22,471 nt of DNA from positions 1-22,471 of the IMG/VR virus record IMGVR_UViG_3300048586_000876, one strand, 5' to 3'. A program made the translations under genes and the position numbers. Numbering within the stretch: position 1 is the first letter of the stretch; the number at the start of each line of letters is the position of its first letter. The notes under the pieces are model-generated. The model was not told the DNA's origin, did not search any database, and saw only the letters and a list, made by a program, of their open reading frames with translations. This DNA comes from a virus. Positions 6,533-13,094 of the stretch are shown here, piece after piece.

Positions 6533-7027
6533 CTACGCTGCATCGTCCTCATCATGTTCCACGCTTTCGGCAATGCGCAGTTCGGCAACATCGTCGGTGA
6601 AATCGGTGAAAAAGTTCAGCTGTGGGTCATCGCGATGAACTTTGTTCATTCTATCGACATCACACACCGCCCTGTAGACATCGCTGGCAATCGCATCGCG
6701 CCTCTGTTTGACAGACTTCTGGCGAAGCGATGGTGAGCCACCCGTGTCGGTGTCGAAGTAGTGTTTGATGGCCTCTCCGCCCTCAAACAGCGTGGCCGAC
6801 TGAAATGCCCGATACGTGAAGCGTCCGTCTTCGTCCCAACGCTTTGCCTGACGCAGAGACTGGGTCACCTGCCGTCGTAGCATCTGCTTTACATCGACCG
6901 GGTTCGGTACGAGCCGACGGTTGGACAAAGCCCAGTCGACGAACTCACCCGGATCGGCCGACTCGTAGCCCGTTTCAGCAACCCACTCTTCCCAAAGGTT
7001 CACAACCTGCTCGCTGAAGTTTGCCAT
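6533..7027 (-). CDS. Conserved hypothetical protein, third gene of the HigBA-like cassette
   Basis: This 164-residue acidic protein is of unknown function. It has no signal peptide or membrane segment. The N-terminus (FSEQVVNLWEEWVAETGYESADPGEFVDWAL) looks helical, a basic middle follows (MLRRQVTQSLRQAKRW, RQKSVKQRRDAIASDVYRAV), and the C-terminus is Asp/Glu-rich (SVEHDEDDAA). On the - strand a very strong ribosome binding site, GAGGAGG, sits 7 nt before the ATG. It follows the antitoxin-peptidase stop by 12 nt, so it is almost certainly in the same operon. I recall similar proteins beside ImmA/IrrE-type regulators in other genomes, but I cannot name a family. Possible roles are peptidase substrate, chaperone or third toxin-antitoxin component. 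GC content is lower than in the phage genes. Confidence 0.8.
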   Translation of the reverse strand: MANFSEQVVNLWEEWVAETGYESADPGEFVDWALSNRRLVPNPVDVKQMLRRQVTQSLRQAKRWDEDGRFTYRAFQSATLFEGGEAIKHYFDTDTGGSPSLRQKSVKQRRDAIASDVYRAVCDVDRMNKVHRDDPQLNFFTDFTDDVAELRIAESVEHDEDDAA

Positions 7028-7039
7028 GTTTCGGCCTCC

Positions 7040-8185
7040 TCAAAGTTCCACGCGGGCGACTTCGTCCCACCCGTCGACAGCTTCCCACTCTTTCAGGAAA
7101 GCTCGAATGCTTGTCTGATACTTACGCAACCAGTTGTGGCGGTTCGTCTTGTGCTGGATCTGCCCGATGACGATCGCCGGATGTATCTGTGCCCGTGCTG
7201 CAAATGCGCGGACGTCTTTTTCGGAAATGTAGGGACTCTTTCTAAGAATGAAGGACTGCAACATCGCCTGATCGACGCAGAAATCAGCAGCCGCAGCATT
7301 CGCGAGCTTTTCGCATTCCGGCAGATCGGGGTTGCCTGAACCCAGATTTCCATCAAAATCGTCAATTGGCGCGAACGTATCTTCGCGGCCATCGCCGCGA
7401 AGGACGTGCTCGATTTCATGGCGCAAAACAAAGCAGAGGTTATCGATCCGATCTAGCCGGTTGGTGAGACCGATCACCGGCTGATCATCGAGCCAAGTGC
7501 AAACGCCATCAATCTTCGATCCGGCGATCTGTTCGACTAGGACCAGCCTTACGCCGCACTTCTTCAACAAGGTTGGAATTCTTGGCAGATCATCGGGATC
7601 GATAAAATGCGACCGAAGAGTTGAAAGAACACCGCGCAGGGCATCCTCAGAATACTTCGGGCAATCGATTGTTTGCGCAACACTTCGCACACGATGAAGC
7701 CACACATACTGGCCCGGAAGAATCTCCGAATATGAGGTTTTCCGAGCAGCGTGAGCAATGACTGGAGCTTCACTGACGAACGGAACCTCATCACGACGGC
7801 TCTTGCCAAAAAATCGCACCATCTGCACATCAAGCAGGCTGCTCTCTGTATCTTCGATCCAACCGCGCTTAATCATCTCGCGAACCGGAAAAACCGCAGC
7901 CCAGGATGCTCGCGTCCGCACGCCGGGATCCGCTTTCTTTGCCCGACCCAAATCGTAATGTTTCTGCAGATTCATGAAGAATTCTGCAGGCATGTCAAAA
8001 GCGTCTCCCAGCATGTTCGCGGAGTCAGGCGTAACGTCCGTCTTACCCTTGATAAGACGATTCAACTGGCTGACATCCCATCCCAATACGAATGCCAAAT
8101 CAGCCTGCGACCAGCCCCTCGCTTCAAGTTCTTCGGCGATGAACTCCCCAGGATGCTCCGAAGGTAGGATTTCAAGACTGGCCAT
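7040..8185 (-). CDS. higA: HigA-like antitoxin: XRE helix-turn-helix fused to ImmA/IrrE zinc metallopeptidase
   Basis: This is a 381-residue two-domain regulator. Residues 10-70 form a HigA-type Xre/Cro helix-turn-helix (HPGEFIAEELEARGWSQADLA, then SQLNRLIKGK). The C-terminal half carries an ImmA/IrrE (COG2856-type) peptidase with the zinc motif HEIEH at 256-260 and a candidate third ligand Glu292 in the motif CEKLANAAAADF. Known family members cleave phage or stress repressors. Here the fusion may both repress the operon and degrade a partner (inference). The start ATG at 8185 overlaps the toxin stop (TGATG), and GAGGA lies upstream. The region 70-200 between the domains is of unknown function. 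All catalytic residues look intact, so it is probably an active enzyme rather than a decayed copy. Confidence 0.88.
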   Translation of the reverse strand: MASLEILPSEHPGEFIAEELEARGWSQADLAFVLGWDVSQLNRLIKGKTDVTPDSANMLGDAFDMPAEFFMNLQKHYDLGRAKKADPGVRTRASWAAVFPVREMIKRGWIEDTESSLLDVQMVRFFGKSRRDEVPFVSEAPVIAHAARKTSYSEILPGQYVWLHRVRSVAQTIDCPKYSEDALRGVLSTLRSHFIDPDDLPRIPTLLKKCGVRLVLVEQIAGSKIDGVCTWLDDQPVIGLTNRLDRIDNLCFVLRHEIEHVLRGDGREDTFAPIDDFDGNLGSGNPDLPECEKLANAAAADFCVDQAMLQSFILRKSPYISEKDVRAFAARAQIHPAIVIGQIQHKTNRHNWLRKYQTSIRAFLKEWEAVDGWDEVARVEL

Positions 8186-8487
8186 CAGTGATAGTCCTCA
8201 ATGCTCAATATCGTGATCGTCGGCGGTTTGGTCCCTTCTTCCAGGGTGAAAACCAGTCTGAATTGGTCGTTCAGACGCACAGACCGCTGACCATCTCGTC
8301 CCCCTCTAAGCTTCTCGTAGTGCAGACTCTTCCAGTTCCGCAGCGACCTCTCATCTGGTGCGGCACGAAGCACTGTGAGCTTTCGCCGCGCAGACTTGAT
8401 GATTGCCACCGAAAGACGCGTGGTCCCGGCTTGATCGGTCTCGATGAGTGCAAGTGTGGCATCAGCGAATACTACTTCCATTGCCAT
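8185..8487 (-). CDS. higB: HigB/RelE-ParE family toxin
   Basis: This is a 100-residue protein of the RelE/ParE superfamily, HigB branch. HigB toxins are ribosome-dependent mRNA interferases neutralised by HigA. The diagnostic part is the C-terminal half: YEKLRGGRDGQRSVRLNDQFRLVFTLEEG followed by ITILSIEDYH. The basic-aromatic core (RSVRLNDQFRLVF) and the terminal DYH ending are characteristic of HigB. It is the first gene of the - strand operon, and toxin before antitoxin is the higBA order. A GGAG lies about 9 nt before ATG 8487; a second in-frame ATG at 8481 is possible. Its placement between two + strand tail genes marks it as cargo. Confidence 0.87.
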   Translation of the reverse strand: MAMEVVFADATLALIETDQAGTTRLSVAIIKSARRKLTVLRAAPDERSLRNWKSLHYEKLRGGRDGQRSVRLNDQFRLVFTLEEGTKPPTITILSIEDYH

Positions 8488-9030: not shown

Positions 9031-9969
9031 ATGGCACGCGCACACGGCGCGCGGGCGCAGATGGCGCTTGCGTTCGAGACAGTCTACGGCACCCCGCCCG
9101 CCAGCGGCTATCGGCTGATGCCCTTCGCCCGCACCACGCTGGGTGCGGAACAGCCCTTGCTGAATTCTGAGCTTCTCGGATACGGCCGCGATCCCCTGGC
9201 CCCGATCAAGGACGCCGTCACCGCCGATGGCGAGGTGGTCGTGCCGATCGATGTGGAGGCCTTCGGCTTCTGGCTGAAGGCGGCTTTCGGCGCCCCGACC
9301 ACCACGGGGACCACGCCAAAAACCCACACTTTCCAGTCGGGCAACTGGTCCCTGCCTTCCATGGCCATCGAAGTCGCCATGCCCGAAGTGCCGCGGTTCG
9401 CGATGTATGGGGGCTGCGTCATAGACCAGCTTTCGTGGCAGATGAGCCGGTCAGGGCTGCTGACCGCTACCGCCCGGCTGATCGCGCAGGGCGAGGCCAT
9501 CGCTGCCACCACGGCCGCGGGCACGCCGACCGCGCTCGGCCTGCAGCGCTTCGGCCATTTCAACGGGGTGGTGAAGCGCAATGGCACGGCACTGGGCAAC
9601 GTCGTCTCGGCCGAGATCACCTATGCCAACGGCCTCGACCGGATCGAGACCATCCGCAACGACGGCAAGATCGAAGGCGCCGATCCCGGCATGGCCGCAC
9701 TGACCGGCCGGATCGAGGTGCGCTTCGCCGATAGCGCCCTCGTCACCCAATCCATCGACGGCACGCCCTGCGAGTTGGAGTTCGCCTACAGCCTCGGGGC
9801 GAATGCCAGTTTCACCTTCACCGCCCATGCCGTCTACCTGCCCGTCCCTCGGATCGAGATCCCCGGGCCCCAAGGCATCCAGGCGACCTTCGACTGGCAG
9901 GCGGCCCGCGCCACCAGCCCCGCCCGCATGTGTACCGCCGTCCTCGTCAACACCGTCACGGGATACTGA
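9031..9969 (+). CDS. Phage tail tube (major tail) protein
   Basis: This 312-residue protein polymerises into the hollow tail tube that guides DNA into the host. The N-terminal part (GARAQMALAFETVYGTPPASGYRLMPFARTTLGAEQPLLNSELLGYGRDPL) and the middle segment with GEVVVPIDVEAFGFWLKAAFG and THTFQSG are typical of the Phage_tube_2-type tail tube family common in Rhodobacterales prophages. The rest is beta-rich, with an ending like EIPGPQGIQATFDWQAA that is also usual for the family. GGAG at 9021-9024 lies 6 nt before the ATG. It stands between the terminator and the tail chaperone genes, as expected for gpV. Confidence 0.88.
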   Translation: MARAHGARAQMALAFETVYGTPPASGYRLMPFARTTLGAEQPLLNSELLGYGRDPLAPIKDAVTADGEVVVPIDVEAFGFWLKAAFGAPTTTGTTPKTHTFQSGNWSLPSMAIEVAMPEVPRFAMYGGCVIDQLSWQMSRSGLLTATARLIAQGEAIAATTAAGTPTALGLQRFGHFNGVVKRNGTALGNVVSAEITYANGLDRIETIRNDGKIEGADPGMAALTGRIEVRFADSALVTQSIDGTPCELEFAYSLGANASFTFTAHAVYLPVPRIEIPGPQGIQATFDWQAARATSPARMCTAVLVNTVTGY

Positions 9970-9971
9970 TC

Positions 9972-10409
9972 ATGATCCGCCTGAACCTCACGAACCGACC
10001 CAAATGGCTGGACCTGCTGCCCGGCCTTCGCGTGCTGGTGGCCCCTCTCACCACCGCGCTGATGGTCTCGGCACGCGCCGATCCCTTGATCGACAATTTG
10101 TCGGAGGCATCAAGCCAGGAGGACTTGGCGCTGGCCATGGCCAAGGCTGTCGCCCGCCGCGCGGTCCTGGAATGGGAAGGCGTCGGCGACGATGACGGCA
10201 ACCTCGTACCCGTCAGCCCAGCCGGGATCGACGCCCTTCTCGACATCTGGCCGGTCTTCGAAGCCTTCCAGGCGGAATATGTCGCCCGCGGCCTGATGCT
10301 GGATCAGGAAAAAAACGCCTCCGCGCCCTCGCCGACTGGTCCTTCGGCGGGGGCGACGGCTACTGCGCGGCCTGCTCGGGCCCCTGCCCCGACTGCCCCG
10401 CAAGACTGA
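9972..10409 (+). CDS. Tail assembly chaperone, gpG-like, zero-frame product
   Basis: This 145-residue protein lies between the tail tube and tape measure genes, the position of the lambda G/GT chaperones that coat the tape measure during tail assembly. The N-terminal about 110 residues (from LNLTNRPKWLDLLPGLRVLVAPL to VFEAFQAEYVARGLMLDQEKN) look like a real helical domain. The last 30 residues are only Ala/Pro/Thr low-complexity sequence, as expected of a frame not used for a folded domain. A frameshift signal at 10310-10355 would replace this tail with the -1 frame extension. The start ATG at 9972 follows the tube stop by 2 nt; an upstream in-frame start at 9930 lies inside the tube gene and is unlikely. 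Confidence 0.85.
   Translation: MIRLNLTNRPKWLDLLPGLRVLVAPLTTALMVSARADPLIDNLSEASSQEDLALAMAKAVARRAVLEWEGVGDDDGNLVPVSPAGIDALLDIWPVFEAFQAEYVARGLMLDQEKNASAPSPTGPSAGATATARPARAPAPTAPQD
10310..10355 (+). promoter_or_regulatory. Programmed -1 ribosomal frameshift signal (slippery heptamer plus stem-loop)
   Basis: The zero frame reads GAA AAA AAC, so the bases at 10310-10316 form A_AAA_AAC, a canonical X_XXY_YYZ heptamer in the right phase. After a 7-nt spacer, 10324-10335 (CGCCCTCGCCGA) pairs with 10344-10355 (TCGGCGGGGGCG). This is a 12-bp stem with one G-U pair and an 8-nt loop (CTGGTCCT). Heptamer, spacer and hairpin all match the classic signal of the kind used in phage tail chaperone genes. Slippage was not measured; the reading is by eye. 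Confidence 0.85.
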
Positions 10410-10639
10410 ATCGGCCGCAGACGGTCGAGGGCTGGCAGGTCTGGGATCTGACCCAGCGCCTCGGCGGCCAGCTGCGCATCGCGCCGGGGGCGGTCATCGG
10501 TTGGGACATGGGCGCGGCGCTGGCATTGGCGCAGGCGCTGGGCGTCAACGCCCTGATCGCCGCCGAGCTGCTGCCCGAGATCGAGGCGGTGATGGTGCGC
10601 AAACTCAACGAGCAGATGGAAGGACGCCGGAATGGCTGA
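10316..10639 (+). CDS. Tail assembly chaperone -1 frame extension (gpGT-like C-terminal domain)
   Basis: This is the -1 frame continuation after the slippery heptamer, 107 codons ending at TGA 10637-10639, which overlaps the tape measure ATG (10632). Fused to the first 115 chaperone residues it would give a 222-residue product. The frame encodes a protein-like sequence: LADWSFGGGDGYCAACSG, then the cluster CPDC, then QTVEGWQVWDLTQRLGGQLR, APGAVIGWDMGAALALAQAL and AELLPEIEAVMVRKLNEQME. The Cys spacing C-x2-C-x3-C-x2-C suggests a zinc knuckle (inference). In lambda the analogous T domain binds tail tube protein. No good independent start with a ribosome binding site is seen near its beginning, which favours frameshift expression, though a separate gene cannot be excluded. 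Confidence 0.75.
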   Translation, partial: RLRALADWSFGGGDGYCAACSGPCPDCPARLNRPQTVEGWQVWDLTQRLGGQLRIAPGAVIGWDMGAALALAQALGVNALIAAELLPEIEAVMVRKLNEQMEGRRNG

Positions 10640-13094
10640 AAAGAAGGTCTCCGTCCGCCTCATGGCGGAGGGCGGACGCCGCGTGCGTGCCGAACTGGAG
10701 GGTGTCGGCGAGGCCGGTGCCCGCGGCTTCGGTCGTCTCTCGCGCGAGATGGAACTGGCGAACACCCGGCTTGCGGCCTTCGCACGCCGTGCTGGGCTTG
10801 CCCTCGGGGCCGCAGCCGCAGCGGCGACAGCCTCGCTCGGCCTGATCGTCCGCTCCACCGCCGAGAGTGCCGCGCAGATCCGGCAGTTCGCGCAGGTCGC
10901 CAATGCCACGCCCGAGGCCCTTCAGCGCTGGTCGGCAGGGGCGCGGACGGTGGGCATCGAACAGGAGAAGCTGGCTGATATCCTAAAGGACGTGAACGAC
11001 CGGGTCGGCGATTTCCTGCAGACCGGCGGCGGGCCGATGGCGGATTTCTTCGAGAATGTCGCCCCGAGGGTCGGTGTCACCGCTGACCAGTTCGCGCGTC
11101 TATCGGGGCCGGAAGCCCTGCAGCTCTATGTGGACACGCTGGAACGGGCGGGTCTTAGCCAGCAGGAAATGATCTTCTATCTGGAGGCCATGGCGTCTGA
11201 CGCCACGCGGTTGATCCCCCTCCTGCGCAATGGCGGGGCGGAGATGGCCCGGCTGGGCGACCAAGCTTCCGATCTTGGCGCGGTTCTGGACAGCGACGCG
11301 CTGGAAGCCCTGCGCCGCACGCAGCTGGCGCTGGGCACCGTATCGCTGGTCTTCGACGGGTTGCGCAACCGCATCGCCGTCGCCGTGGCCCCGACCATCG
11401 AGGCGCTGGCCAATGCCTTCGTTGCGCTGGCCTCGGATGGCGGGATCCTGCGCTCGGCCATCGACATCCTGATCGGCAACCTCGGCCGTCTCGCCTCCTA
11501 CGCCGCGACCTTCGCTGCTGTCATGGCGGGGCGCTGGGTCGCAGGCATGGCGGCCGCCGCCCTGTCGGTTCGCGGCCTCGCTACCGCGCTGGTCTTCCTT
11601 CGCGGCGCCCTGATCCGCACCGGCATCGGGGCGCTAATCGTCGGTGCGGGCGAACTGGTCTACCAGTTCTCGCAGCTCGTCGCCCGGGTCGGCGGTGTGG
11701 GCGAGGCGTTTCGCCTGCTCGGCGATCTGGCCCGCGAGGTCTGGTCGCGCATCGGACTGTCGCTCGACGCTGCCCTCGCGCGGATGGCGGCTGGATGGGA
11801 GGGGCTGAAGGCGGCTGGTCTCTCGGCCCTCGAGGGCACCATCGCGGGCGTCGTCAGCTTCGGCGACCGGACGGCGGCGATCTTCCAGGGGGCATATGAT
11901 GCGGCGGTGGCGATCTGGGGCAGTCTGCCCGGGGCCATCGGCGACTTCGCCTTTCAGGCCGCGAACGGGCTGATCTCGGGCGTCGAGGCGATGCTGAACG
12001 GCGTCGTCACCCGGATCAACAGCTTCATCGAGACCCTGAACGCGGCCCTTGCGCTGCTGCCGGAATGGGCCACCGGCGAAGGTGGCGTTCGGATCGGCGT
12101 CCTCGACCCGGTGGAACTCGGCCGCATCGGCAACCCCTTCGAAGGCGCGGCGACCGCAGCCGGTACTGCCGCGGCAGATGCTTTCTCGGCCGCGCTGTCG
12201 CGGACCTACCTCGAGCCGCCTGATCTTGGCCTCGGCGCGATGGCCGACGATGCCCGCGCTCGGGCAGACGGCTATCGCGAAGCGGCCGGGATGCTGGCCG
12301 ATGCCGCCGGTCGGCCGCTCGCCAGCTGGCAGGCGCTCAAGGATGCCGTCACCGGCACGGGGACGGAAGCCGAGACCGCACTCGCCGATGCAGCCGCTTC
12401 GGCAGATGCCCTCATGGCAGGGCTGAACGACACGACCACCGCCGCCGAGGGCGCGGGCAGCGCCGCACGCGACGCCGGATCTGCGGCGGCCGAAGGCGCG
12501 GACACGGCACTCACCGGCTGGCAAGCCGTCACCGCAGCCCTCGCCGACTACGCCGCCAAGGCGCGCGACATTGGCGGGGACATCGGCAGCGCGCTGGTGG
12601 GCGCGTTTCAGAGCGCCGAGAATGCCATCGGCGACTTCGTGAAGACCGGGAAGCTCGATTTCCGCGATCTGGTCACCTCGATGATCGCCGATCTCGCCAA
12701 GCTTGCCGCCCGGCGCTTCATCCTCGGCCCCATCGCCAATGCTCTTTCCGGCGCGCTGGGCGGGGCGGGTGGCATCTTCGCGAATATCCTTCATACGGGC
12801 GGCGTGGTCGGCGCCCCTGGCCCCAGCCGGATGGTCCCGGCGCTGGCCTTTGCGGGTGCCCCGCGCATGCACAACGGGGGCTGGGCCGGGCTGCGGCCCG
12901 ACGAGGTGCCCGCAATCCTGCAACGCGGGGAGCGGGTCCTCTCCCGGCGTGAGGCGGCAGCGTACGGCCAGGCGGGTGGCTCGACTGTCAACGTCACGAT
13001 CAACGCCCGTGACGCCGAGAGCTTCCGCCAATCGCGCACGCAGGTGGCAAGCGACATCGCCCGCGCCGTATCGCTGGGCCGAAGGGGGATGTGA
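10632..13094 (+). CDS. Tail tape measure protein, lambda-type
   Basis: This 820-residue protein spans the tail lumen and sets tail length. By the usual rule of about 0.15 nm per residue, the tail would be near 120 nm. The N-terminus (KKVSVRLMAEGG, then EMELANTRLAAFARRAG) leads into a hydrophobic alanine-rich segment near residues 50-75. A second hydrophobic region lies at about 285-345 (ATFAAVMAGRWVAGMAAAAL to TGIGALIVGAGELVY). Long Ala-rich helical stretches follow. The C-terminus has the lambda tape-measure signature (SALVGAFQSAENAIGDFVKT, then LDFRDLVTSMIADLAKLAAR) and the conserved HTGGVVGAPGPSRMVPA and RPDEVPAILQRGERVLSRREA. GGAAGGACG near 10618 serves as ribosome binding site. The stop overlaps the next start (TGATG). 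Confidence 0.94.
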   Translation: MAEKKVSVRLMAEGGRRVRAELEGVGEAGARGFGRLSREMELANTRLAAFARRAGLALGAAAAAATASLGLIVRSTAESAAQIRQFAQVANATPEALQRWSAGARTVGIEQEKLADILKDVNDRVGDFLQTGGGPMADFFENVAPRVGVTADQFARLSGPEALQLYVDTLERAGLSQQEMIFYLEAMASDATRLIPLLRNGGAEMARLGDQASDLGAVLDSDALEALRRTQLALGTVSLVFDGLRNRIAVAVAPTIEALANAFVALASDGGILRSAIDILIGNLGRLASYAATFAAVMAGRWVAGMAAAALSVRGLATALVFLRGALIRTGIGALIVGAGELVYQFSQLVARVGGVGEAFRLLGDLAREVWSRIGLSLDAALARMAAGWEGLKAAGLSALEGTIAGVVSFGDRTAAIFQGAYDAAVAIWGSLPGAIGDFAFQAANGLISGVEAMLNGVVTRINSFIETLNAALALLPEWATGEGGVRIGVLDPVELGRIGNPFEGAATAAGTAAADAFSAALSRTYLEPPDLGLGAMADDARARADGYREAAGMLADAAGRPLASWQALKDAVTGTGTEAETALADAAASADALMAGLNDTTTAAEGAGSAARDAGSAAAEGADTALTGWQAVTAALADYAAKARDIGGDIGSALVGAFQSAENAIGDFVKTGKLDFRDLVTSMIADLAKLAARRFILGPIANALSGALGGAGGIFANILHTGGVVGAPGPSRMVPALAFAGAPRMHNGGWAGLRPDEVPAILQRGERVLSRREAAAYGQAGGSTVNVTINARDAESFRQSRTQVASDIARAVSLGRRGM

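Follow-up and report, generated by a model that had tools for sequence, protein, structure and literature searches.

A Conserved Frameshift Signal in a Tail Chaperone Gene Related to Rhodobacterales Prophages Predicts Two Lambda G/GT-Type Products

Introduction

In bacteriophage lambda, most ribosomes produce a short tail assembly chaperone and a few shift into the -1 frame to produce a long one; the part common to both products is the one that binds the tape measure protein, and recruitment of the tube protein falls to the extension (PMC5009743). A programmed frameshift is present in the chaperone gene of most phages in a collection isolated on Rhodobacter capsulatus (PMC8601537), and the haloarchaeal viruses HCTV-1 and HCTV-2 carry the slip sites G_GGA_AAC and A_AAA_AAC in their g-t genes (PMC5009743). 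The hosts of the latter two viruses are archaeal, and their likeness to the locus described here lies in the slip sites.

Here, a virus record of 22,471 bases (the window, meaning the whole stretch of DNA that was analysed) was examined. Positions 9972-10639 very probably encode two tail assembly chaperones through programmed -1 ribosomal frameshifting of the lambda G/GT type. This reading, already proposed in an original prediction, is supported by an in-register signal, by synonymous constraint and by a conserved extension protein. The locus resembles lambda G/GT in its gene order, in the pair of a short and a -1 extended chaperone with a common N-terminus and in a slip site close to the end of the first frame (PMC5009743).

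Results

Organization of the Chaperone Locus

The nearest sequenced relatives of the window are prophages of Paracoccus, Gemmobacter, Rhodovulum, and other Rhodobacterales. The chaperone gene is located between a tail tube gene and a lambda-type tape measure gene, and a gene-transfer-agent-like tail tip set (distal tail, hub, NlpC/P60 peptidase, and megatron) follows further downstream. The features of the locus are:

9031-9969, plus strand: tail tube protein gene, directly upstream (PF18906 Phage_tube_2, E 2e-59)
9972-10409, plus strand: zero-frame tail assembly chaperone (G-like), 145 aa (PHROG 313, translation)
10310-10316, plus strand: slippery heptamer A_AAA_AAC (direct reading; heptamer in register at 186 distinct homologous loci)
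10317-10323, plus strand: spacer of 7 nt between heptamer and hairpin
10324-10355, plus strand: predicted stimulatory hairpin, 12 bp with an 8-nt loop (fold, synonymous recodings, pairing across loci)
10316-10639, plus strand: predicted -1 frame extension (T-like), 107 aa plus stop, reached by frameshift only (DUF7697, homologues)
10364-10396, plus strand: four-cysteine motif C17-x2-C20-x3-C24-x2-C27 of the extension (invariant in 27/27 and 25/25 aligned members)
10632-13094, plus strand: tape measure gene, directly downstream (PF09718 Tape_meas_lam_C, E 1.5e-23; PHROG 8462, E 2e-155)

The zero frame starts with the ATG at 9972 and ends with the stop codon at 10407-10409. It matches the PHROG 313 tail assembly chaperones (E 9e-28) and no Pfam family, and its residues 1-115 are common to the 145-residue product and the predicted fusion. 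The -1 frame is read through 107 codons from 10316 to 10636 with a stop codon at 10637-10639, overlaps the start of the tape measure gene at 10632, and would yield a fusion of 222 residues; translation thus returns the three lengths given in the original prediction. The openness of the -1 frame, which the prediction had used as an argument, was rejected as evidence: long open -1 frames are nothing unusual in DNA so rich in GC, and those of other genes in the window extend by chance up to 308 codons. The case for the reality of the extension is made by homology between sequences rather than by the openness of the frame.

The slippery heptamer was read directly in the zero frame as GAA AAA AAC (10308-10316), and AAAAAAC occurs twice within the window (0.39 expected). 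The arms of the hairpin, CGCCCTCGCCGA at 10324-10335 and TCGGCGGGGGCG at 10344-10355, form 12 pairs including one G-U, and the predicted fold contains three further pairs beneath a bulge. The segment 10317-10362 has a folding energy of -30.4 kcal/mol (z -4.1), and none of 200 dinucleotide shuffles was as stable. On re-reading and folding, the originally proposed positions of the heptamer, the 7-nt spacing and the 12-bp stem proved exact to the base.

A separate block on the reverse strand (6533-8487) is located in the tail operon between a DUF6441 gene and the next tail gene:

8185-8487, minus strand: HigB-like toxin
7040-8185, minus strand: protein with HTH and ImmA/IrrE-like peptidase
6533-7027, minus strand: 164-aa protein

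No such reverse-strand block is present at the corresponding place in phage RcKemmy.

Conservation of the Slip Site

A total of 186 distinct homologous loci were identified through protein homology alone. In register with the window, 170 of these carry A_AAA_AAC, 14 carry G_GGA_AAC, and one each carries A_AAA_AAA and G_GGA_CAC, so that 185 of 186 fit the form X_XXY_YYZ. The two main heptamers were interchanged more than once, with a minimum of eight heptamer-state changes on a tree in which many forks are unresolved, and the AAA to GGA swap replaces a lysine with a glycine yet retains the tandem-slippage form. Three loci (L011, L067, and L086) were excluded because of a difference that changes the frame, a shortened run of As or Ns close to the site. 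Overall, the comparison covers the prophages of the Rhodobacterales for which the original prediction had suggested it and reaches well beyond them, with heptamer, hairpin and -1 frame conserved.

Among 395 genomes from the family of one relative, the seven-A site is present in 76 and the in-frame eight-A form, which would permanently fuse both frames, in none. Several of these genomes match the site repeatedly (10 times in G389, 6 in G319, and 5 in G003), which suggests that each contains a number of related prophages or tail modules. Eight As that join both frames into one open reading frame were found at L002/L123 (on a contig of Roseisalinus antarcticus) and at L003. There, the long chaperone would be made by default, and a shift would be required for the short one. 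As both adjoin seven-A relatives on the tree, the eight-A runs look like recent changes or assembly errors.

Heptamers ending in AAC account for 184 of the 186 distinct loci. The ending AAG, which is reported to shift most readily in E. coli (PMC5009743), occurs at none of the 186. A survey of lysine tRNAs in 41 genomes with strict patterns, which miss genes, identified a CUU-anticodon-like pattern in 2 and a UUU-like pattern in 26 of the genomes.

At three loci (L177, L179, and L180) a zero-frame stop codon is located one codon past the slip site, so the short product can do without its low-complexity Ala/Pro/Thr tail.

Selection on the Heptamer and the Hairpin

Synonymous constraint was assessed by comparing observed and expected codon identity at conserved residues in 86 representatives; the pairs are non-independent and the figures are therefore read as a contrast, not as probabilities. 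Codon identity is 1.00 for both heptamer codons (expected 0.77 for AAA and 0.87 for AAC) and 0.79 across the hairpin (10316-10355, expected 0.62). In the dual-coding stretch beyond the hairpin it is 0.69 (expected 0.66), and in the single-coding extension 0.60 (expected 0.63). The fall of the constraint past the hairpin indicates that the two-frame overlap is not its whole cause.

Compared with synonymous recodings of the same peptide, the hairpin region is more stable at every one of the 86 loci (z < 0; mean z -2.9), with p ≤ 0.05 at 86% of them, while control stretches elsewhere in the extension gave z values of -0.03, -0.95, 0.05, and -0.14 in the same test. The hairpin is weak in a Methylobacterium-like group (z about -0.1 at L172 and L173). 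Pairing of the stem is retained in 88.7% of cells across the loci vs. 42-54% in slid registers. Covariation is limited to three pairs that changed on both sides, no more than in slid registers; it is weak as proof because the stem hardly varies and lies within two overlapping coding frames, and the synonymous tests were relied on instead. A stable structure located a few nucleotides past the heptamer is selected as RNA. The test of the stem suggested with the original prediction thus came out in its favor, with synonymous constraint peaking at heptamer and stem and the stem surpassing its synonymous recodings.

The Frameshift Extension

The extension contains a DUF7697 domain (PF24752) at residues 56-105 (E 2e-28, 98.3 bits vs. 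a gathering score of 27), and 26 of 27 aligned extension members match DUF7697 at E ≤ 0.01. Homologues of the extension were traced to about 30% identity. Residues R1, W8, G11, G13, Y16, C17, C20, C24, C27, G39, W43, and G76 are invariant in the alignment, and the four cysteines are suggestive of a metal-binding knuckle, possibly a zinc site, that would be present in the frameshift product only. Because the invariant residues begin right at the slip site, the conserved N-terminal part is without an internal start. Judged by this alignment, the extension is a protein under selection that is encoded in the -1 frame and has no start of its own.

The matches to Pfam DUF7697 (52 positions) and PHROG 11212 (55 positions) are confined to the C-terminal half of the extension (residues 53-106). 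Both families were probably built from mis-started genes, and it is probably due to mis-called starts that they hold only the C-terminal halves. That gene callers would mis-start the extension had been anticipated in the original prediction, and this is seen in the records of two cyanophages, Synechococcus phage Sc-Yong805-1 and Nostoc phage Nsp-JY21, which list a CDS of its own for the extension, with a start 40 codons into it.

An AlphaFold model of the extension (pLDDT 91.9, pTM 0.83) gave no match below E 1.7 in a fold search of the PDB, and neither the shared part nor the extension has a sequence relative among solved structures. In the viral library BFVD, several tape measure chaperones from enterobacterial siphophages are among the top matches of the model (probability 0.84-1.00, E 0.03-0.35). 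The top-ranked include those of Enterobacter phage F20, Klebsiella phage Solomon, and Salmonella phage Shivani (probability 0.84-1.00), which at 16-17% identity and E 0.03-0.2 are suggestive only. The BFVD matches fit a shared ancestry without proving it.

Alternative Explanations

A -1 product could also arise during transcription if the RNA polymerase slips on the seven-A run, which is present in the window and in most relatives and whose length is changeable, as the two eight-A loci demonstrate. However, 14 of the 186 loci carry G_GGA_AAC, a standard ribosomal slip site without a long homopolymer, and polymerase slippage on a homopolymer does not require synonymous constraint on a downstream hairpin, which makes this explanation very unlikely. 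The G_GGA_AAC relatives also share the frame break without any A run, and this bears on the idea that the break is a sequencing error or the mark of a decayed gene. In some data, runs of As often come out one base too long or too short, but the same seven-A run recurs in the genomes of the relative's family, where the eight-A form is absent (76 and 0 of 395, respectively). Recurrence across relatives rules out error or decay for practical purposes.

Equally negligible in probability is a separate gene for a DUF7697 protein with its own internal start. The two family profiles that match residues 53-106 only, the two phage records with a CDS starting within the extension and an available ATG at 10508 in the -1 frame would agree with it. 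In the window, however, ATG, GTG, and TTG are all absent from the -1 frame between the upstream stop at 10193 and the ATG at 10508, and at 127 of 186 loci none of these codons occurs from the upstream stop of the frame to the slip site. The invariant residues (R1, W8, G11, Y16, and the four cysteines) begin at the slip site, upstream of any start codon, and a separate gene would leave the conservation of the heptamer without a reason. Among the homologues examined, none encodes the extension independently with a conserved start.

Discussion

Programmed ribosomal frameshifting, the preferred reading, would operate at this locus as follows. Most ribosomes would pass A_AAA_AAC and stop at 10409 to release the G-like protein of 145 residues. 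A smaller share would be delayed by the hairpin at 10324-10355, slip back by one base on AAA AAC with the lysyl and asparaginyl tRNAs and read the -1 frame to 10639, resulting in the GT-like protein of 222 residues. By analogy with lambda, the shared part may be the one that binds the tape measure protein and the part reached by frameshifting the one that recruits the tail tube protein, and the ratio of the two products would hence matter. We infer the slippage, its efficiency and the binding partners from the analysis of the locus and its relatives. In E. coli, A_AAA_AAC is far less shift-prone than A_AAA_AAG (PMC5009743), and the efficiency of the frameshift may therefore be modest.

A frameshifted chaperone is known in kind, and homologous loci are present in eleven isolated R. 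capsulatus phages. The invariant four-cysteine motif is absent from the annotations examined, as is the fact that DUF7697 and PHROG 11212 cover only the C-terminal half of the extension. Taken together, the sequence comparisons describe a deeply conserved frameshift cassette that is common in prophages of the host family (in the family of the one relative, about a fifth of the genomes surveyed carry the site). DUF7697 and PHROG 11212 resemble short proteins of unknown function that would really be the C-terminal halves of frameshift extensions, and fixing the mis-starts would rename many "unknown" proteins as tail chaperone extensions.

The closest described systems are the R. capsulatus phages RcKemmy, RcOceanus, and nine relatives (GenBank MW677517 and others), whose homologous extension shows 59% identity and is located at the same place as the window gene, between tail tube and tape measure. 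The RcKemmy record annotates both a short and a joined chaperone (j2, a two-part join), and its slip site is G_GGA_AAC vs. A_AAA_AAC in the window. In the window, by comparison with these phages, the tape measure gene is longer and the tail operon contains the reverse-strand insert with HigB and the HTH-peptidase protein. At the level of Pfam, no sequence match to lambda G or T was found. Unlike in lambda, the extension is of the DUF7697 type with four invariant cysteines and the second slip codon is AAC. It is conceivable, although rather doubtful at present, that the DUF7697-type chaperones form a distinct branch of G/GT proteins with a metal-binding four-cysteine domain found in the frameshift product only, and that their AAC endings reflect decoding in alphaproteobacterial hosts unlike that in E. 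coli.
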